NCBI GenBank assembly: GCA_937132085.1
Contig: CAKZNV010000203.1
Span: forward strand, 1 to 49,891
Length of the DNA stretch: 49,891 nt
Source of the DNA: an uncultured Rubritalea sp.
Lineage (GTDB): Bacteria > Verrucomicrobiota > Verrucomicrobiia > Verrucomicrobiales > Akkermansiaceae
Reading direction: 5' to 3'
The position numbers and the translations under genes were made by a program. The notes beneath the pieces were generated by a model that was not told the origin of the DNA, ran no database searches, and was given only the letters and a program-made list of their open reading frames with translations. Below, piece after piece: positions 40,613-49,891 of this stretch. Positions within the stretch are counted from its first letter, which is position 1; each line of letters begins with the position of its first letter.

Positions 40613-42007
40613 TTAACCTTCTTCAGTTGGTTGAGCTGCTACTGCTGTGTTGAGCCTGTTTGCAGGTTTGATTGCATCTGGGTTTGCCAGCAGTGGGTTA
40701 GTTTTCGTCGCTGCGTGCACTCCGAGGAGTGGATTTGGCTTCGGCTGCTGTGATGCTACGCCGAATGGGTTAGGCACTGCTGGTAAATTGAGCGCTGGAG
40801 AAGGAGTCTCATCCGCGATGTCTGCTGATGCCGGTCTGAGTGGGATCGGCTGAGTTTTAGGTCCAAGGTTCACTCCCATAGAGGCCATTGCGCTTGTAGG
40901 TGCAGGCTGAGGTGAATCATAACCGTTTGCTACTGGTTGAGCAGCAGGAGCTGGTTGAGCTACTGGAGCCGCTCCGCCTAAAGCACTGAATCCGCTTTGT
41001 GGTTGAGCTTGAGCTGCTTGCTGCTGGAATCCACCTTGCGCTGGAGTTGCGTTGTCTTGGCCTACTTTTGCCATGAAGTTAATCGCATTGATAAGCTGTT
41101 TATGCCAGAGGATCGCTCCAATTACTGGTAGAAGTAGTAAGCATACAAACATTCCCATCGTGATCTGAGGAGCGTGTCTGGTGTTGTCATATCTGCTAGT
41201 GATTGAGTTCCATTGCTTAGGTAGTCCACCGACAGCCAAAAAGAGCCAGACGATGTTAAAGAGTGGGATGAACATAAATCCGATTGCTTTACCTGGGCTA
41301 ATAGTAGCTCCACCTGGCTGAAGTGCTGCCCATGCTCTGTAAAGATAGATGTATGAAAGTATACCTGATGTTAAGAAAAGGCCACCAGCTATAAGCATTA
41401 GGAGAAGACCTCCACCGACTCCAGCTGCAGCTGCGTTAACAGCCGCTTCTTCGGAGCCACCAGCATGCATAACTTCAGCTCCAGCCATGCCTGCTTTAAA
41501 GGTAGATACTCCTGCAAATATGATAAGAACTGCTCCAATAATGAAAAGCATCATCCAGAGCATGAAACTGCCGCCCTTTTGGATAGTTTTTGGATATAAG
41601 TTTGATAGCCCCTGAGGATCAGCGCCCGGAGTGGCATACGGATCGTGACCTGCGATTGCTCCTGCTGCTGCCGGCACTACTGGTTGAGTAGTCGGAGTAG
41701 ATGGAATCATGGCAGATGTCGGAGCGAGTGTTGGCTGCGCAGGTTGAGCGTGGGCAACGGCAGTCGGTTGAGGAGCTCTGAGAGCTGGTGCTGCTGTAGC
41801 AACTGGTGCTGGTGCCACCTCGGCAGGAACCTCGAAAAGCCCTTCGACGTTGGACGCTGGGATCCACTGGTGTCCTAAAGCTTCTGTCCAAACAACAGTT
41901 TCGTGAGTCACGATTTCATTTGCTACAAGTTCTTGTAGTTCAGGAATAGTGATAGGTCCTATCTGTGCTTCATTGCCGTCGATGTAATACCAAAGTTGTT
42001 CGCTCAT
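40613..42007 (-). CDS. GYF_2 (DUF4339) domain membrane protein
   Basis: The 464-residue protein opens with a GYF_2 domain (about 1-60: LWYYIDGNEAQIGPITIPEL and HQWIPASNVEGLF), then a proline/alanine-rich linker (65-125), three or four hydrophobic helices (about 148-290) and a long low-complexity tail rich in alanine, proline and glutamine. GYF_2 domains are widespread in Verrucomicrobiota and Planctomycetota, often attached to membrane regions, and probably bind proline-rich peptides. Function unknown. It follows argH on the minus strand with a short gap. Confidence 0.8.
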   Translation of the reverse strand: MSEQLWYYIDGNEAQIGPITIPELQELVANEIVTHETVVWTEALGHQWIPASNVEGLFEVPAEVAPAPVATAAPALRAPQPTAVAHAQPAQPTLAPTSAMIPSTPTTQPVVPAAAGAIAGHDPYATPGADPQGLSNLYPKTIQKGGSFMLWMMLFIIGAVLIIFAGVSTFKAGMAGAEVMHAGGSEEAAVNAAAAGVGGGLLLMLIAGGLFLTSGILSYIYLYRAWAALQPGGATISPGKAIGFMFIPLFNIVWLFLAVGGLPKQWNSITSRYDNTRHAPQITMGMFVCLLLLPVIGAILWHKQLINAINFMAKVGQDNATPAQGGFQQQAAQAQPQSGFSALGGAAPVAQPAPAAQPVANGYDSPQPAPTSAMASMGVNLGPKTQPIPLRPASADIADETPSPALNLPAVPNPFGVASQQPKPNPLLGVHAATKTNPLLANPDAIKPANRLNTAVAAQPTEEG

Positions 42008-43544: not shown

Positions 43545-43871
43545 TTATATAACGGATCGATAATAGAGAAGCACTGATAATATCCAGATTAGAACTCCTA
43601 GAATAATGATGAATTCAATGAGTGTGATAATACAGATTTTAGGATCATTAAACTGATTCCCGCATTCATTGCATTTACGGGGATATTTGTTCCTGAGGGT
43701 ATCAAAAAATTTCATGATGCTAAAGTGCTGGAGGAACGCAATGAGCTTATTTTTAAAGCCCATATTCTGAAGTGATTCAGTATTACATGATCCACATTTT
43801 GGGCAAACATCTGTTGATCTAGTGATCTCATGATTTGCTTCTGAGCGGGGTGGCTGATAAGGATTTTTCAT
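43545..43871 (-). CDS. Small zinc-ribbon membrane protein
   Basis: This 108-residue protein begins MKNPYQPPRSEA, a start common to small membrane proteins of Verrucomicrobiota and Planctomycetota. Two CxxC pairs, CPKCGSC near residue 23 and KCNECGN near 67, suggest a zinc ribbon, and the last 30 residues form a hydrophobic helix. Function unknown. It is the last chromosomal-looking gene before the tRNA fragment that marks the accessory element. Confidence 0.65.
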   Translation of the reverse strand: MKNPYQPPRSEANHEITRSTDVCPKCGSCNTESLQNMGFKNKLIAFLQHFSIMKFFDTLRNKYPRKCNECGNQFNDPKICIITLIEFIIILGVLIWILSVLLYYRSVI

Positions 43872-43880
43872 AAAGATAAA

Positions 43881-44102
43881 TTGGTCGGAACGACAGGATT
43901 CGAACCTGAAGGAGAAACCCAGTTAAATAACTCACTACTAGATAGTTACGTTTTAGAAAAGTGCCTATGGACACAAGGAGGGACACAAAGAATAGGCTCA
44001 GATTGTCCTAAATTGGCAGAGATTTCAGAGTCTTGGCATAGTCTTCCTGACAGCCTCAAAGAGGCTATTTTACTGATTTCTCGCTCAGCAACAGATAGAT
44101 AA
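43881..44102 (+). CDS. Short ORF crossing the att site; possible tail of a recombinase
   Basis: A 73-codon frame begins within the tRNA fragment (giving VGTTGFEP, the usual false translation of such tRNA ends) and continues as CPKLAEISESWHSLPDSLKE to a TAA. The second half resembles tails that follow tyrosine recombinase genes in Planctomycetota and Verrucomicrobiota, as far as I remember. No catalytic recombinase domain is in the window. The call is weak and the frame may not be translated from TTG 43881. Confidence 0.3.
   Translation: MVGTTGFEPEGETQLNNSLLDSYVLEKCLWTQGGTQRIGSDCPKLAEISESWHSLPDSLKEAILLISRSATDR
43882..43908 (-). other. tRNA 3'-end fragment, probable attachment site of an integrated element
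   Basis: Read on the minus strand, these 27 bases form the T arm and acceptor end of a tRNA: CAGG-TTCGAAT-CCTG, seven acceptor bases CGTTCCG, a discriminator A and CCA. The adjoining bases to the right do not continue into anticodon or D arms, so no complete tRNA is present. An acceptor start of CGGAACG would fit tRNA-Pro among others. This is the pattern left at the distal att site when an element integrates into a tRNA 3' end; the intact tRNA would lie to the right, outside the window. Confidence 0.7.
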
Positions 44103-44205: not shown

Positions 44206-44730
44206 ATGCAGTCCGACAATCCAGATTTCAACCGCAAGTATGAGGAGCTAAGTGCTCCTGTATTGCACTACGCCTACACACTATGCCGTGACTGGGCATG
44301 GGCGGAAGATGTCTCTCAGCAACTCTGGATTCGCATGTATCGCTACCACAAGAAGCACAGCTCTTTTCCTGAAATCGGAAACGTCTACAACATGACAAAG
44401 CAAGCGTTCATCGATGACTATAGAAAACATAAACGCCGTGACCATGTCTGCACGATGGAAGATCCTCCTGAAATTCCCATGATGCCAGTTCGACAAGATT
44501 CTCTCTTCTCAGAAGACGAAAGTGGTCTCTTCAGCCAATTCTGGGAGCAATTCACCCCTCTCGAATTACCACTCATCGACCGACAAGTCTTTTGGCTTCA
44601 TGAACGCTATGGCTACACAATGGTAGAAATCGCTGAAAAAACGCAGCTTGCGAAATCCACAGCTCACGATAAATTAAAGAAGGTGAAGGCTGCATGCCTC
44701 GACTTTCTTAACCTAGAGAAGTCACAATGA
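44206..44730 (+). CDS. ECF-type RNA polymerase sigma factor
   Basis: This 174-residue protein has a region 2-like segment with WAEDVSQQLWIRMYRY near residue 31-46 and a region 4 helix-turn-helix with QVFWLHERYGYTMVEIAEKT and AKSTAHDKLKK near 125-160. It probably directs transcription of a small gene set, possibly the element's own. Its TGA stop overlaps the next ATG, so TGA clearly acts as a stop here. No recognisable anti-sigma membrane protein follows. Confidence 0.8.
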   Translation: MQSDNPDFNRKYEELSAPVLHYAYTLCRDWAWAEDVSQQLWIRMYRYHKKHSSFPEIGNVYNMTKQAFIDDYRKHKRRDHVCTMEDPPEIPMMPVRQDSLFSEDESGLFSQFWEQFTPLELPLIDRQVFWLHERYGYTMVEIAEKTQLAKSTAHDKLKKVKAACLDFLNLEKSQ

Positions 44731-44945
44731 ACGAAGATAACGACAAGCCTAAGATTACGGAAAAAGATCTCACAAATCTAGTGAGAGGTTTTGGTATGCC
44801 TTCTGGTAAAGAACTTGAAAAGAAAGTTGAACAGTCCATTGAGAACGAAAAAGATCAGTCCCAAGAAATGGAGAATGATCCTACAGGATTAAAACAACTA
44901 TATAGAGAACAGGAACAAAATAGAAATCAGGACAGAAAGCGGTAA
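44727..44945 (+). CDS. Small charged protein coupled to the sigma factor
   Basis: The 72-residue protein is very rich in acidic, basic and polar residues, with no hydrophobic helix. It starts at ATG overlapping the sigma-factor stop (ATGA), so the two are coupled in translation. It could be a soluble regulator of the sigma factor, but I recognise no family. It ends in TAA. Confidence 0.55.
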   Translation: MNEDNDKPKITEKDLTNLVRGFGMPSGKELEKKVEQSIENEKDQSQEMENDPTGLKQLYREQEQNRNQDRKR

Positions 44946-45014: not shown

Positions 45015-45281
45015 ATGACCTATTCGATAGCACAGCTTGGAAAGCTCTCTGAAGAAATCATCCTTGAAGCTCAAAAGAAGCCAGTTCGCATCGCCAAGAA
45101 CGGTAAAGATTGTGCAGCTATCATCTCTATTCCTGACCTTGATTTACTAGAGGAAACTAAGAAATCATACAAACTTCGATCTGCCGTGCAAGCTGGGTTT
45201 TCTCAGATTGCAGAAGGAAATTATAGCACTAAATCAATGGATGAAATTTTTGAGGAAGCAAAAAGAAAGATAAAAGAGTAG
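45015..45281 (+). CDS. Phd/YefM-like antitoxin
   Basis: This 88-residue protein has the Phd/YefM N-terminal pattern: MTYSIAQLGKLSEEIILEAQ followed by KPVRIAKNGKDCAAIISIPD, the DNA-binding part, and a flexible charged C-terminus that would wrap a toxin. No toxin gene follows; the next 400 bases hold iterons. It may help plasmid maintenance as an orphan or act with a distant toxin. The stop is TAG, compatible with either genetic code. Confidence 0.7.
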   Translation: MTYSIAQLGKLSEEIILEAQKKPVRIAKNGKDCAAIISIPDLDLLEETKKSYKLRSAVQAGFSQIAEGNYSTKSMDEIFEEAKRKIKE

Positions 45282-45664
45282 CTTTCCCTAAATACCTGAA
45301 CAGGCATGATTACCTTTGTGCCCCTCTCTTTCCCCCTTTCGACATCTATAAGAATAACTATAACCATTATAGCTTTCCAACTTCCGCAGCTACATGCTGA
45401 AATCTCACGCCTATGGTGACCTTTTACAGTAGCAAAAGTGACCTTCTACAGTTTCTATAAGTGACCCTTTACAGTAACTCCTACCTGAAAAGTGACCCTT
45501 TGCAGTATGAAACCCAACTTTCAATTTTCGAACCCCTGAGGCTGTTGCAATTCACCTATCGATTCTGAACTCCACCTTACTGTAAAAGGTCACCTTTAGC
45601 CCCACCTCCATAAGTGACAAGTGACCTCAACGAAATTTGACACCGTCACCGTTTTGCATACCAT
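45282..45664. other. Non-coding origin region of the replicon
   Basis: No open frame of useful length is present. The stretch holds the iteron array (45416-45507) and one inverted copy (45578-45593), and ends with the palindrome over the rep start. I see no perfect DnaA box. A TAACCATTAT motif at 45361 resembles a motif upstream of two later genes. Confidence 0.7.
45416..45593 (+). repeat. Iteron array of a Rep_3-type plasmid origin
   Basis: Four direct copies of GTGACCYTTTACAGTA occur at 45416-45431, 45438-45453 (GTGACCTTCTACAGTT), 45461-45476 and 45492-45507 (GTGACCCTTTGCAGTA). Start-to-start spacing is 22, 23 and 31 bases, about two, two and three helical turns. One inverted copy lies at 45578-45593, and a partial GTGAC pair at 45612-45625. 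This is the classic architecture of an initiator-bound origin just ahead of its rep gene. The inverted copy may serve in autoregulation. Confidence 0.9.
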
Positions 45665-45689
45665 GTTCCATATTCAAAGAATATGGAAC
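45665..45689. promoter_or_regulatory. Perfect inverted repeat spanning the rep start codon
   Basis: Two perfect 11-base arms, GTTCCATATTC (45665-45675) and GAATATGGAAC (45679-45689), flank AAA. The ATG of rep (45683-45685) is inside the right arm. It could be an operator for Rep autoregulation or a hairpin that hides the start codon. Confidence 0.7.
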
Positions 45690-46993
45690 TAACAAACACC
45701 ACATTACCCACTGACGAAAGGTTCCTCAAAAAGCATATTGAGGTCGTTCACACGCATTGAACTCTTTGACTTTTAGACAAAAGAATTTGGAATGAGTTAC
45801 TCCTTCATGCTTATCCCAGCCTTCTCACTCATTCTCGATTTGACATCAAATATTCCGTGCTTTTGGAACGTCTTCGCTACGACTCATGAGACAGGCAACT
45901 GATCAAAGACTCGCTAAAAAAACTCGCACGCACGCAAATTGAATTCATCGATAGTGACGCTGACGGGAAGGAGCTTTCTTGGCAAGTGATGAACCATATA
46001 TCTGCCCCTAAAATCCGCTGGGGTGCCGACTCCTTCTCATATGGCTATGACCACGGACTCCCAGAGTTACTCTACGACCCTAAGACCTATGCACTCATCA
46101 ACCAAGCTAGTGAAGAACGCTTCAATAGCAAATACACCCTAAACCTCTACGAAAACGCCGTGCGGTATAAGGCTCGCCCTGGTTATCCATGACTCACACC
46201 TCAGTGGTCTCTTGAAATATTTCATAAATTTATGGGAACGGAAAGTGTTGAACTGTATGAACGTTACGCCGAACTTAATCGTCGAGTCATTAAGCCGTCC
46301 GTTAAAGAAATCAATGATAAATCAGATATCCACCTTACTTTTCTCCCTATCAAAATGGGAAGAAAGATAGTCGGTGTGCAATTCAAAGTCGTAGAAAACC
46401 CCAAGAACGATCAACTCAAGATTCCTTGAACTGAGGAAAAGAAAACCACTGCTGAAATCCTCAAAAAATCCATCGTTCAAAAATGTATCAAGCTTGGTGC
46501 AGGTGAAGGACTGGCTTGCCTCTGGTATAAGCAATACGGAGAAGCCTACCTCACTGAAAAAATCATTTTCACAGAAAAAACAATCAAATCCTGATCTATT
46601 AAAAAGACTCCCTGAGCGTGTCTCACGTGGGCGGTGGAAAAAGACATCAAAGACAAAAACCCCGTCTTGGAAGCATGAAAAAAACGACGGGAAATTCAGG
46701 CCGAAAAACAGAAGGTCGAAAAGCTAGAGCACGAACAAAGCCGTCTAAAGTCGGAGAAGGATCGAAATGCTCGCCTCAAATCCAAGGAACTCGTGAATCA
46801 ATACCTTATTGAACGCACAGAAGCTAAACAGCAAGAGCTTCGAGCTGAATTTCAGGAACTCTACCAAGACTTCATTGAGCAATCCATTTTCAAACCAGAA
46901 GAAGTATTTCATTGCTGGGTTGCAGAGTCAGCACAACTTGGAAATCCCTATCCTATGATCAGAGGAGCCCGTATTAAGCATATAGCTGCGTAG
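45683..46993 (+). CDS. rep: Rep_3-family plasmid replication initiator, with eight in-frame TGA codons
   Basis: In one continuous frame of 437 codons from ATG to TAG there are eight TGA codons (residues 26, 29, 69, 170, 249, 304, 311, 332) and no TAA or TAG. The protein is otherwise a complete initiator: LLDKRIWNELLLHAYPSL near 30-47, ELLYDPKTYALINQ, SKYTLNLYENAVRY at 149-162, RVIKPSVKEINDKSDI, and a charged coiled-coil tail from about 335. Remembered Rep_3 proteins have glycine or small polar residues at several TGA positions (SG-T-x-S-LL at 26/29, the G before TP at 170, the G of P-G-A/Y-L at 311), favouring TGA as glycine. It follows an iteron array and should bind it. A standard-code host would read only 25 residues. 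Confidence 0.85.
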
Positions 46994-47048: not shown

Positions 47049-47123
47049 TTGATCAATAGAAAGTATTGCTATCGATCAAAAAACCATTAAATTGTGATCA
47101 ATAGAAATCACACCTATTGATCA
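47049..47123. promoter_or_regulatory. Two inverted-repeat pairs upstream of the Fic gene
   Basis: The motif TGATCAATAG occurs as two inverted pairs: TTGATCAATAG (47049-47059) with CTATCGATCAA (47069-47079), and TGATCAATAG (47095-47104) with CTATTGATCA (47114-47123). Centres are 45 bases apart. The last arm touches the ATG. The downstream Fic protein has a C-terminal winged-helix region, so autorepression through these sites is plausible. Confidence 0.75.
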
Positions 47124-48208
47124 TGATATGGAACTGGCAAAAATCTGACTGGAGAAAATTCTCCTATGAATCCTCGAAACTTCAACACTTTGAGGATGAT
47201 TTCCTTCGCTATTGCGGGGAGGTAGTCGGAGCACTCAAGCACCTCAATACCGATGAGAAAAACGAGCTACGTGTTACCTTGCTCAGGGACGAAGCCATAC
47301 AAACCTCCAAGATCGAAGGTGAATACCTCGATCGTGATAGCATCCAGTCGTCTATCCGACGTCATTTTGGACTTCAAGTAACCAATGAGAACAAAGCTCT
47401 CAAAGAACAAGGTATCAGTGATCTACTTGTCGATGTTTATCAGAATTTTGAAAAACCACTTTCACATGATCTTCTTCGCCAGTGGCAACGCAAACTCTTT
47501 AGCTCAGCACCTGGATCAGGGGAGTATCGCACGCACGAAGAGCCTATGCAGGTTGTTTCAGGTGCCATCTACGCCCCAACTGTTCACTTTGAGGCTCCAC
47601 CATCGGCTCAAGTTCACGACGAACTCGAAGCGTTCATCCTGTGGTATAACACCGCACATGAAGAAAAATCTATCAGCCCTCTTATTTTAGCTGGAATCTC
47701 TCATCTTTGGTTCGAGTGCATCCATCCTTTTGAGGACGGGAATGGACGTGTAGGCCGTGCTTTAGCTGAGAAGTCCCTCTCCCAATCTCTCGGTCAGCCA
47801 TCGCTTATTTCTCTTTCCTCCGTGATTGAGAAAAAGAAAAGTGCCTACTACGAAGCACTAGAGAAAGCCAACAAAGGCAATGAAATCACTAAATGGCTGG
47901 AGTATTTCCTCCCCACCATGATCGAAGCTCAACAATACAGCCTCAAGAAAATCGACTTCATTATCCAGAAAGGAAAACTTCTCAACCAGCATCAGAAGCA
48001 GCTCAACGAACGTCAGCTCAAAGTTGTGCTCCGTATGTTTAGGGAAGGCGTTGAAGGATTTAAAGGTGGACTCAGTGCAAAAAACTATATGAGTATTACC
48101 CAGATATCCCAGCCTACTGCTACCCGTGATCTTCGTGACCTTGTAGAAAAAGGCGTTTTCAAAAAGACGGGAGAACTCCGCCACACCCGATACTGGTTGA
48201 ATATCTGA
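47123..48208 (+). CDS. Fic family protein (AMPylase-type) with N-terminal DUF4172-like and C-terminal winged-helix regions
   Basis: The protein of about 361 residues starts MIWNWQKSDW, typical of the DUF4172-type N-terminus, and includes the regulatory TSKIEGEYLDRDSI segment with the (S/T)xxxE inhibitory glutamate, the catalytic HPFEDGNGRVGRAL loop (HxFx(D/E)GNGRxxR), and a C-terminal helix-turn-helix (ITQISQPTATRDLRDLVEKG). Fic proteins attach AMP to target hydroxyls. All of its about 20 glycines use GGN and none uses TGA. It ends at TGA 48206; if TGA were read as an amino acid it would end three codons later at TAG 48220. I start it at ATG 47123. Confidence 0.9.
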   Translation: MIWNWQKSDWRKFSYESSKLQHFEDDFLRYCGEVVGALKHLNTDEKNELRVTLLRDEAIQTSKIEGEYLDRDSIQSSIRRHFGLQVTNENKALKEQGISDLLVDVYQNFEKPLSHDLLRQWQRKLFSSAPGSGEYRTHEEPMQVVSGAIYAPTVHFEAPPSAQVHDELEAFILWYNTAHEEKSISPLILAGISHLWFECIHPFEDGNGRVGRALAEKSLSQSLGQPSLISLSSVIEKKKSAYYEALEKANKGNEITKWLEYFLPTMIEAQQYSLKKIDFIIQKGKLLNQHQKQLNERQLKVVLRMFREGVEGFKGGLSAKNYMSITQISQPTATRDLRDLVEKGVFKKTGELRHTRYWLNI

Positions 48209-48220
48209 TCTATCCTCTAG

Positions 48221-48394
48221 GAACCCTCTGTAATGACTGGACAAGGAGGGAGTGCATACTCATTCCACATTATACTGACTCCATCTCAGGGGCAGTTTTT
48301 TAATGCTGAATTTTAGCAACCTAGAACCTCCTTTCAGTCGGTCTCCAAGTTGCCCCTTCGCTTCTCGTCAGTCCATGCTTCATTGAGCATACGC
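48221..48394. other. Gap between Fic and the next small gene
   Basis: No supported gene or clear signal was found. Short frames exist but none has recognisable content. The end of the gap joins the conserved leader motif described separately. Confidence 0.5.
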
Positions 48395-48419
48395 TCTCTT
48401 ATATTCTAACCATTTCATT
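48395..48419 (+). promoter_or_regulatory. Shared leader motif, first copy
   Basis: CTTATATTCTAACCATT lies 6-8 bases ahead of the start at 48420. A near-identical motif, CTTATTCTAACCATT, lies at the same distance before the gene at 48849, and TAACCATTAT occurs at 45361 in the origin region. The function is unknown; a translation or transcription start signal special to this replicon is likely. Confidence 0.5.
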
Positions 48420-48779
48420 ATGGTAAAATCTGTGAGTCGACACCACCTCGACTATGTATCTCGGCACATCAACCAAACCCGACTGGTTTTGGAATGATTG
48501 CAAGTCAACCTCCTCAGCTACGATGATATCATCGGCTGGGATGAAGACACCGAAGTCTTTCAATGGCTCGCCTTCAATCACTTTTACGAGACTGATTATG
48601 AACGTCTCAAAAAAGCTGGAATCCCTTTCCTCGATAGCGAGTTTTGAACATGGGTTGGTATTACCAGCTACGGATCTCACTACGACCTCTACGTCTATCC
48701 TGAGTTGCTAAAAGCACTCTTCGATGTCGATTGTGATCATTACGATCTCGATTCTTTGCGACAAAAAACCTCCGCATAA
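48420..48779 (+). CDS. Small protein of unknown function with two in-frame TGA codons
   Basis: A 120-codon frame from ATG to TAA contains TGA at residues 26 and 76 and no other stop. The continuous protein has coherent segments on both sides: SYDDIIGWDEDTEVFQWLAF, YERLKKAGIPFLDSEF, then after the TGA TWVGITSYGSHYDLYVYPEL. The reading FLDSEF-Gly-TWVG looks natural to me, but I cannot name the family. Read in the standard code it is 25 residues. It shares the leader motif with the next gene and has a hairpin over its stop codon. Confidence 0.72.
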
Positions 48780-48800
48780 TGCAGAGGCTCTCTTATTTTC
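48766..48800 (+). terminator. Possible terminator at the end of the small recoded gene
   Basis: Arms CCTCCGCA and TGCAGAGG (48769-48776 and 48780-48787, one mispair) around TAA are followed by a pyrimidine-rich CTCTTATTTTC run. The stop codon lies in the loop. Confidence 0.45.
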
Positions 48801-48826
48801 AAGCGTCTGAATTCTCAGGTGCTCTT

Positions 48827-48848
48827 TTCTTATTCTAACCATTATTCT
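48827..48848 (+). promoter_or_regulatory. Shared leader motif, second copy
   Basis: TCTTATTCTAACCATT precedes the start at 48849 by about six bases, matching the copy before 48420. Both belong to genes with in-frame TGA codons. Confidence 0.5.
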
Positions 48849-49232
48849 ATGAAATCAACTATTCACACATCACCCGACGGAAACTTCCCTTACGGAGACC
48901 AATCTAACTACCGAAACTTCCTGCTCTGAGAAGAGGTTCTAAAGGGCTTCGCAGAACACGAGGAGGCGAACATGACAGCTTCAAACCCTATGGTGATTGC
49001 TCGCTACTTCCACCCATCCAGTTCTATGACCTGGTATGCAACTGAATACAACGTCGACGAAGAAGTCTTCTACGGCTACGTCACAGGCTTTCACTATCCA
49101 GAGTGGGGTTCATTCTCTCTACGAGAGTTCATTGAGCTTCAGCTCCCATACGGGCTCAAAATAGAGCGTGACCTATGGTTCATGCCTAAGCCGATCAAAC
49201 AGGCTCTCAAAGACGACGGTCAAGAGCTTTAA
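48849..49232 (+). CDS. DUF2958-like protein with one in-frame TGA codon
   Basis: A 128-codon frame from ATG to TAA has a single TGA at residue 27 (between NFLL and EEVLKGF). The C-terminal part matches the DUF2958 pattern found in plasmid and conjugative-element proteins: PMVIARYFHPSSSMTWYATE, VFYGYVTGFHYPEWGSFSL and IERDLWFMPKPI. An ATG at 48972 could give a shorter 86-residue protein without the TGA, but the N-terminal segment reads like genuine coding sequence and the leader motif sits before 48849. Function of the family is not established. Confidence 0.75.
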
Positions 49233-49353
49233 GGCCTACACTTTTGAAGGCATCGTCTCTGGTGCCTTCTCCTGAAGGCAATCTAAGTTTGATTTGATCA
49301 TTGATTCAAGTATCATGCACTCCAATCATAATGTATGATTGAAAAGTAATGGA
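49233..49353. other. Gap with a small hairpin
   Basis: A hairpin GAAGGCA / TGCCTTC (49246-49252 and 49263-49269) follows the DUF2958-like gene, with a third GAAGGCA at 49274. There is no T run, so it is not a standard terminator. No gene is seen. Confidence 0.4.
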
Positions 49354-49400
49354 AAAGAGGAGCTGTATACCTTTAGGCGAGGTTGCTCCTCTTTTTTTGA
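49354..49400. terminator. Terminator between the DUF2958-like gene and the minus-strand gene
   Basis: A perfect ten-base stem AAAGAGGAGC / GCTCCTCTTT (49354-49363 and 49385-49394) is followed on the plus strand by a T run, and on the minus strand by TTTTCC. It can serve both converging transcripts. Confidence 0.85.
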
Positions 49401-49405
49401 TCAAC

Positions 49406-49888
49406 TTACTTCTCAATCTCCGACACATCCCTCTGAATCGTCCTCAGCGACACCGATGGTATAGCCTCCGCTATTTCATGAGCATTCAACCCATTTCCTA
49501 ACATCTCAGAAACGAGCTTCACTCGCTGATCCTTCGATAGGGAAGTAGCGCTTCCTATCTCAGGATTCCAGCTTCGCTTCATCTCGTTTTTCACAGAGTG
49601 CATCAACGCCTCGAAGCTCAAGAAAAGTAAAACTGGTGGTGAGGCTGCTAGAAGCATCGCCAGCCACCTTCCTTCCACATGGCAGATATTGAATAACACG
49701 CTTCCACTAGAGACGAACACCACCAGACCTCGCAACCACAGTGTCGGCTCTTCTCGTAACGATGCTCGCAAGGCTGACATCGAGAACACCACGATCGCAC
49801 CGTCGATCACCAGAGGGAACACCCAGCTCAGTCCAGGTGTCACCACCGCTTGCTCGACGGCTAGCTGTCTCAACGCCTCGAAGGACAA
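49406..49888 (-). CDS. DUF2637-like membrane protein with C-terminal helix-turn-helix (partial)
   Basis: The visible 160 residues run off the right edge, so the true start is missing. Three or four hydrophobic helices include LSWVFPLVIDGAIVVFSMSA and FVSSGSVLFNICHVEG, resembling DUF2637 (SpdD/TraK-like plasmid-transfer membrane proteins of actinobacteria and others). The C-terminus has a helix-turn-helix, LNAHEIAEAIPSVSLRTIQRD. It ends in TAA and contains no in-frame TGA. It appears richer in G+C than the recoded genes beside it. Confidence 0.65.
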   Translation of the reverse strand: MSFEALRQLAVEQAVVTPGLSWVFPLVIDGAIVVFSMSALRASLREEPTLWLRGLVVFVSSGSVLFNICHVEGRWLAMLLAASPPVLLFLSFEALMHSVKNEMKRSWNPEIGSATSLSKDQRVKLVSEMLGNGLNAHEIAEAIPSVSLRTIQRDVSEIEK

Positions 49889-49891
49889 GCT

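Follow-up and report, generated by a model that had tools for sequence, protein, structure and literature searches.

How is UGA read in a plasmid gene that sits in a genome ending its own proteins at UGA? The question is raised by rep, the gene for a Rep_3-type replication initiator of 436 aa at positions 45683..46993 (+) of the window, by which we mean the whole stretch of 49,891 nt that was analysed. Translated with table 25, the frame runs from the ATG at 45683 to the TAG stop at 46993, with eight in-frame TGA and no TAA or TAG in 436 codons. The TGA codons are residues 26, 29, 69, 170, 249, 304, 311 and 332, including all five that an earlier note had named (26, 29, 69, 170 and 311). The protein matches Pfam Rep3_C (E 3e-18) and Rep3_N (E 9e-7), and the WH1 and WH2 domains of Rep_3 (PF01051/PF21205) score 66.2 and 29.8 bits against Pfam cut-offs of 21.1 and 22.4.

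The host genome and its code

The window is the entire contig C203 of G000, a 4.46 Mb Verrucomicrobiales MAG of 254 contigs whose same-genus relatives are deposited as Verrucomicrobiales and Rubritalea; all hosts of the element described below are MAGs. In the chromosomal genes of the window (1-43.4 kb, among them those for leucyl-tRNA synthetase and argininosuccinate lyase) none of 11,945 codons is an internal TGA, so UGA as glycine does not extend genome-wide; several of these genes end in TGA, a rare stop in the G000 chromosome. Nor is release factor 2 absent, as it is under code 25: each of the five rep-bearing hosts examined has prfB, which scores above cut-off in G000, G011, G034 and G070 and is split across two contigs in G003. 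Because TGA serves the chromosome only as a stop and prfB is present, a code-25 genome is excluded; G000 is a standard-code genome with RF2. The note's pointer to Absconditabacteria/Gracilibacteria as the source of this DNA is accordingly rejected, given also the 4.46 Mb MAG, its Verrucomicrobiales and Rubritalea relatives, and a rep GC content that tracks Verrucomicrobiales hosts. A narrow two-motif peptide scan of 84,980 species found Verrucomicrobiales and one Alteromonadaceae-labelled MAG, and no Gracilibacteria relative.

Between the leucyl-tRNA synthetase and argininosuccinate lyase genes, the chromosomal part of the window also encodes a GYF-domain + DUF4328 protein (40613-42007, -).

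UGA as glycine in rep

The earlier note had proposed glycine from the Rep_3 pattern. Column-by-column scoring of 24 TGA columns against 12 standard-code plasmid homologues of rep bears the proposal out, giving glycine +14.0 bits, serine -2.0 and tryptophan -54.7; in the controls GGN codons were called glycine with +16.0 bits and TGG codons tryptophan with +15.0 bits. Seven related rep genes, aligned, have 54 TGA and no TAA or TAG, and their TGA columns hold 49 glycines (GGN), no TGG or tryptophan and no cysteine. Where the window rep and a second copy in the same genome (contig C246; 70% identical, with its own TGA codons in the same frame) disagree, eight of ten discordant TGA columns face GGT, GGC, GGA or GGG; the other two face serine and alanine, and none faces TGG.

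The five residues named in the note fared unevenly against the standard-code homologues. Residue 26 is mostly glycine, as proposed there, while 29 is Ser/Thr, 69 mostly Asn and 311 Ala/Val/Leu, and 170 falls within an insert. The glycine call thus comes from the whole TGA set and the recoded relatives more than from those five residues. The note's estimate that 11 of about 37 glycine codons in three genes are TGA proved exact (11/37): TGA and GGN number 8 and 14 in rep, 2 and 4 in 48420-48779, and 1 and 8 in 48849-49232.

Other genes of the element behave alike, with UGA at conserved glycine columns, as under code 25, in xer, parA and DUF2958 as well as rep. Of three TGA columns in a Xer-type recombinase on contig C155, two (K[G]LRD and [G]I) are glycine in Pseudomonas plasmid homologues, the ParA site [G]L faces GGN in relatives, and the DUF2958 sites NPV[G]A and EW[G], in NPxG and EWG motifs, are GGN in other relatives.

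Selenocysteine or tryptophan at UGA is the least probable reading we considered. A tRNA-Sec(UCA) is indeed encoded in G000, G003, G010, G011 and G034. SelB/SECIS-dependent insertion, however, does not suit many scattered UGA per gene, here 8-10, and the columns rule out both amino acids, selenocysteine by the lack of cysteine among the rep relatives and tryptophan by its -54.7 bits. Glycine in rep is settled as far as sequence can settle it.

The element, its copies and its integration sites

The segment that holds rep forms one end of an integrative Verrucomicrobiales plasmid. At the chromosome/element junction lies an attachment-site fragment (43882..43908, -), identical to the 3′ end of the tRNA-Pro(GGG) gene at contig C27. 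It is followed by a small sigma-70-like regulator (44206..44730, +; Pfam Sigma70_r2 1e-6, Sigma70_r4_2 2e-5), in standard code with no TGA in frame and a TGA stop, and by a small conserved standard-code ORF (44727..44945, +) that overlaps this stop (ATGA) and has 71% DNA identity to C246 27395-27619. A Phd/YefM-like antitoxin (45015..45281, +; PF02604 E 3e-5, below cut-off), also in standard code with no TGA, precedes the iteron array (45414..45599, +), in which four direct repeats (A)GTGACCYTTTACAGTA lie at 45414, 45436, 45459 and 45490 and one inverted copy occupies 45577-45599. Downstream of rep are a cargo gene for a Fic protein (DUF4172-Fic; 47123..48208, +; PF13776 2e-25, PF02661 2e-17), in standard code with 0 TGA against 21 GGN and a TGA stop; hypA (48420..48779, +; 119 aa, no Pfam match), with two UGA read as glycine, both at positions common to C246; a DUF2958 protein (48849..49232, +; 127 aa, PF11171 8e-14) with one; and a standard-code DUF2637 protein (49406..49891, -; PF10935 4e-16) cut by the contig end.

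Contig C246 has the gene order tRNA-Tyr fragment, integrase, sigma, small ORF, iterons, rep, hypA, DUF2958, DUF2637. Compared with it, the window copy has no integrase between tRNA fragment and sigma, and has the antitoxin and Fic genes in addition. Window 45321-46960 (iterons and rep) is 74% identical to C246 and 48213-49891 (hypA-DUF2958-DUF2637) 91%, and C246 ends at the base homologous to the end of the window; from this split and the shared end point, the elements are probably mosaic, with an identical continuation collapsed in assembly.

In all, the element comprises iterons, rep, ParA, Xer-type recombinase, integrase and tRNA attachment sites. It is found in five genomes, all from one family, and G000 has at least three copies. 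Four genomes of the same genus or family supply five further rep genes with TGA, 33-49% identical to that of the window; no others were found when 387 genomes from across the phylum were searched. The sigma gene is kept upstream of rep in G000b, G003, G011, G034, G070 and L076. The iteron array of the window recurs at C246, related TGACCNTTTACAGTA repeats lie upstream of rep in G011, G003 and L076, and iterons with this core precede rep in the copies read, so that the arrangement of a Rep_3 iteron plasmid, iterons beside rep with an inverted copy near its start, is conserved in the relatives.

L076 (JALZUE010000140.1) is a contig of the Alteromonadaceae-labelled MAG. It has the same element module, with one TGA in rep and several in DUF2958-type genes, and is either a mis-binned contig or a sign of a wider host range.

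Contig C27, with an intact tRNA-Pro(GGG), ends in exactly the 77 nt that it has in common with window 43832-43908, on the chromosomal side. Contigs C105 and C155 likewise have exactly 77 nt in common, beginning within tRNA-Pro(TGG), after which one continues into chromosome and the other into integrase. Such overlaps have the pattern of assembly branches and suggest that, in the population sampled, some tRNA-Pro sites are occupied and others empty. Integrase adjoins the tRNA in both C246 and C155, and C155 adds a second ParA type and the Xer-type recombinase, with three TGA each. In G011 the element is flanked on one side by an intact tRNA-Tyr and on the other, beside integrase, by an exact 57-nt repeat of the 3′ end of that gene, although the stretch between the repeats also has chromosomal-type genes such as groEL and the true extent of the element is uncertain. 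The pair that marks an integrative element at a tRNA gene, integrase plus a direct repeat of the tRNA 3′ end, is thus present in G011; the window copy has the tRNA fragment without integrase.

In G011 and G005 ParA has two TGA; in G003 it has one or more. The nearest relative that turned up, at 67% identity, is a standard-code gene from within the order; in PLSDB, the Rhodobacterales plasmids that hold the best named relatives of the recoded ParA also hold those of rep. The 67% relative (G118 C106:5031-5606; L162/L283) belongs to another family and lies beside apparent iteron-like repeats, and its locus is possibly a standard-code sister plasmid.

Two codes sorted by gene function

Across four elements, rep, parA, hypA and DUF2958 together have 47 TGA to 130 GGN, and all 13 TGA-bearing genes end in TAA or TAG. 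The integrase, sigma, small ORF, toxin-antitoxin, DUF2637, Fic and defence genes of the same elements have 0 TGA to 272 GGN, and 7 of 24 end in TGA. The split gives p about 1e-21 (6e-22 with the ParA and Xer of C155 added, when 15/15 TGA-bearing genes end in TAA or TAG), values that overstate the case because the genes were grouped after their TGA positions had been seen. More weight should go to the consistency of the split, each gene family keeping to its side in independent elements. For the sigma gene and small ORF alone, which adjoin rep in every copy, TGA is 0/28 (p 5e-4).

On this evidence UGA is glycine in the plasmid-phase genes (rep, ParA, Xer-type recombinase, DUF2958 and hypA), and the chromosome-phase and cargo genes (integrase, sigma, toxin-antitoxin, Fic, modification/defence) avoid sense UGA, some of them stopping at it.

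Selection and apparent use within Verrucomicrobiales

Between the two G000 copies rep has dN/dS of about 0.10 (0.21/2.17), and between G003 and G011, two species, 0.14, at a dS of only 0.12. The GC content of rep follows that of the host flank (rep/flank 41.7/41.7, 42.3/42.8, 48.3/49.5 and about 50/54), and codon use of the TGA-bearing genes correlates with that of the other element genes at 0.85. Purifying selection and host-matched base composition therefore point to a rep that appears to have been translated within the Verrucomicrobiales lineage over a long time, rather than imported recently.

These values also bear on a reading of the elements as relics, in which the plasmid genes have decayed and TGA marks nonsense mutations. 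Integrated copies can decay, and the missing integrase of the window copy would suit such a relic. Decay would hardly have left 54 TGA but no TAA or TAG in seven rep genes, concentrated at glycine columns, in intact frames with dN/dS about 0.1, and TGA in the same gene families of every element; the missing TAA/TAG and the low dN/dS lead us to reject the pseudogene reading as very improbable.

Search for a decoder of UGA

The earlier note had looked to a tRNA-Gly(UCA) elsewhere in the assembly. None is among the 52 tRNAs of G000, in which selC is the sole UCA tRNA, and the nearly complete tRNA censuses of G000 and G011 have no UCA tRNA besides selC, as is also the case among the tRNAs read in G034 and G070. 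Absence is less firm in G003, G034 and G070, where the individual reading covered part of the tRNAs. The elements themselves were searched with ARAGORN, Rfam at a permissive E-value and our own cloverleaf scanner with shuffled controls. No tRNA(UCA) was found inside the G011 element between the tRNA-Tyr repeats, and no suppressor tRNA turned up in that element, in L076, in C155 or in what is sequenced of the window copy, whose distal part is unassembled. Scans of viral contigs for rep, ParA, Xer and UCA tRNA patterns gave no match.

Pattern scans of 11 and 192 genomes for UCA tRNAs returned selC and one true new match, G003 C140:688-759 (56 bits), within a chromosomal tRNA array. Published criteria for glycine are a tRNA-Gly(UCA) with G1:C72, C2:G71, G3:C70 and U73 (Shulgina and Eddy, PMC8629427). 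The G003 tRNA has C2:G71 and U73 only, with A1:U72, A3:U70 and two U-U mismatches, and by these criteria would not be assigned to glycine. Its syntenic gene in G000 has the anticodon UCU, not UCA.

The array itself is a conserved chromosomal run of odd, fast-changing tRNAs, seen at G000 C36:38919-41693, G005 C98, G034 C74, G011 C15 (~53 kb) and G003 C89/C140, the terminal tRNA in G003 having UCA where G000 has UCU. In G000 and G005 it adjoins a conserved protein starting MKNVIHKNVVLVLNRNWQA, which we take to be HNH-like.

A proposed translational gate and its alternatives

Since the hosts, ordinary marine Verrucomicrobiales, end proteins at UGA, some decoder must switch the reading of UGA before the plasmid replicates. 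We favour, at a probability of about 0.5, an integrative plasmid in which UGA as glycine keeps the autonomous-phase genes locked until a suppressor supplied in trans opens them. The plasmid would integrate and be carried silently under the host's code, because rep is untranslatable beyond residue 25 under that code; replication, partition and dimer resolution would start only when a glycyl-tRNA(UCA) out-competes RF2. Such a tRNA might come from a helper element in trans, from the rapidly evolving host tRNA array or from the unassembled part of the element, and the UGA codon would then serve, at translation, as the gate that separates the integrated state from the autonomous one. The complete version, with integration and cargo genes in host code, replication, partition and resolution genes in UGA=Gly, and a glycyl suppressor tRNA in trans choosing between dormancy and autonomy, we would put a little under even odds.

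The absence of a visible decoder in Verrucomicrobiales hosts is what one would also expect if the plasmid replicated in a partner of Absconditabacteria/Gracilibacteria type, whose code has UGA as glycine, and the Verrucomicrobiales copies were integrated and non-replicating, with the standard-code genes serving that phase. Phages shared by, or code-compatible with, code-25 and standard-code bacteria have been proposed (PMC10746230), and free plasmids are often missing from MAG bins. Against such a shuttle or recent donor, rep matches each host's flank in GC, the attachment repeat is identical to the host tRNA-Tyr over 57 nt, the closest ParA found is the standard-code gene of the same order, the PLSDB plasmids nearest in rep and parA are RepB-I plasmids of Rhodobacterales, and the motif scan gave no Gracilibacteria. 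We regard this origin as unlikely, and only marginally less so a constitutive dual decoding in which an atypical or missed glycyl-tRNA(UCA) leaves UGA always ambiguous in the hosts, with no switch. Constant ambiguity would account for selection on rep across the family; the G003 array does contain a UCA tRNA with U73, tRNA arrays are fragmented in MAGs, and UGA is a rare stop in the G000 chromosome. Yet chromosomal genes still end at TGA and have none internally, RF2 is present, the nearly complete censuses of G000 and G011 show no such tRNA, and the syntenic array tRNA of G000 reads UCU. The gated plasmid remains our preferred reading.

Relation to known systems

Code switching in standard-code hosts appears in the literature searched only as phage cases. 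In recoded phages of standard-code bacteria (UAG as glutamine in crAss-like phages; suppressor-tRNA code switching), as here, one functional gene class uses a stop codon as sense and the others are code-compatible; the present element differs in being a plasmid, in reassigning UGA to glycine rather than UAG to glutamine or UGA to tryptophan, in recoding replication and partition genes rather than late genes, and in having no suppressor tRNA found on it. Stop-codon suppression is thought to gate late genes in such phages, which are the nearest functional precedent for the proposed gating of a plasmid by UGA.

UGA as glycine in bacteria has been reported only for Absconditabacteria and Gracilibacteria (PMC8629427). 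NCBI code 25 (Absconditabacteria/SR1, Gracilibacteria BD1-5) resembles the present case in that UGA is glycine and TGA accounts for a sizeable fraction of the glycine codons in the genes concerned. In those lineages, however, the whole genome is recoded, tRNA-Gly(UCA) is present and RF2 absent (PMC8629427 and general knowledge), whereas here only a plasmid gene set is recoded, within standard-code Verrucomicrobiales that have RF2 and in which tRNA-Gly(UCA) was not detected. A phage-borne tRNA-Gly(UCA) does exist: the patescibacterial phage RSA-ATP1, like our element a mobile one associated with UGA as glycine, has a tRNA-Gly-sup(TCA), but the phage, which carries this tRNA itself, is associated with Absconditicoccaceae and its host uses code 25 (PMC13059738). 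Rep_3/RepB-I iteron plasmids of Rhodobacterales (Octadecabacter arcticus pOA238_118, Sulfitobacter sp. S223) share the rep family, at 31% identity, and likewise have a ParA-like gene (31-34%) close by, but are free replicons in standard code throughout.

If the reading holds, a UGA=Gly plasmid gene set that has diverged to 33-70% identity inside standard-code hosts means that a second code can persist beside the host's, sorted by gene function, and it becomes a testable question whether mobile elements can control replication by a code switch. Standard gene callers, moreover, miss rep, parA and xer when these are written with UGA as glycine, and the number of such plasmids is probably underestimated for that reason.

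Cargo and a further element

The cargo of the G011 element includes a row of methyltransferase, PRTase-CE and ORC-CDC6-like genes (L071 4248-8443; G011 C14 32248-36446) that looks like a defence or conflict system. On G000 C157 (8820-17640; L080 3820-12640) an intact selC is accompanied by a second selC 3′ fragment 8.7 kb away, and the pair probably marks another element integrated in selC of G000.
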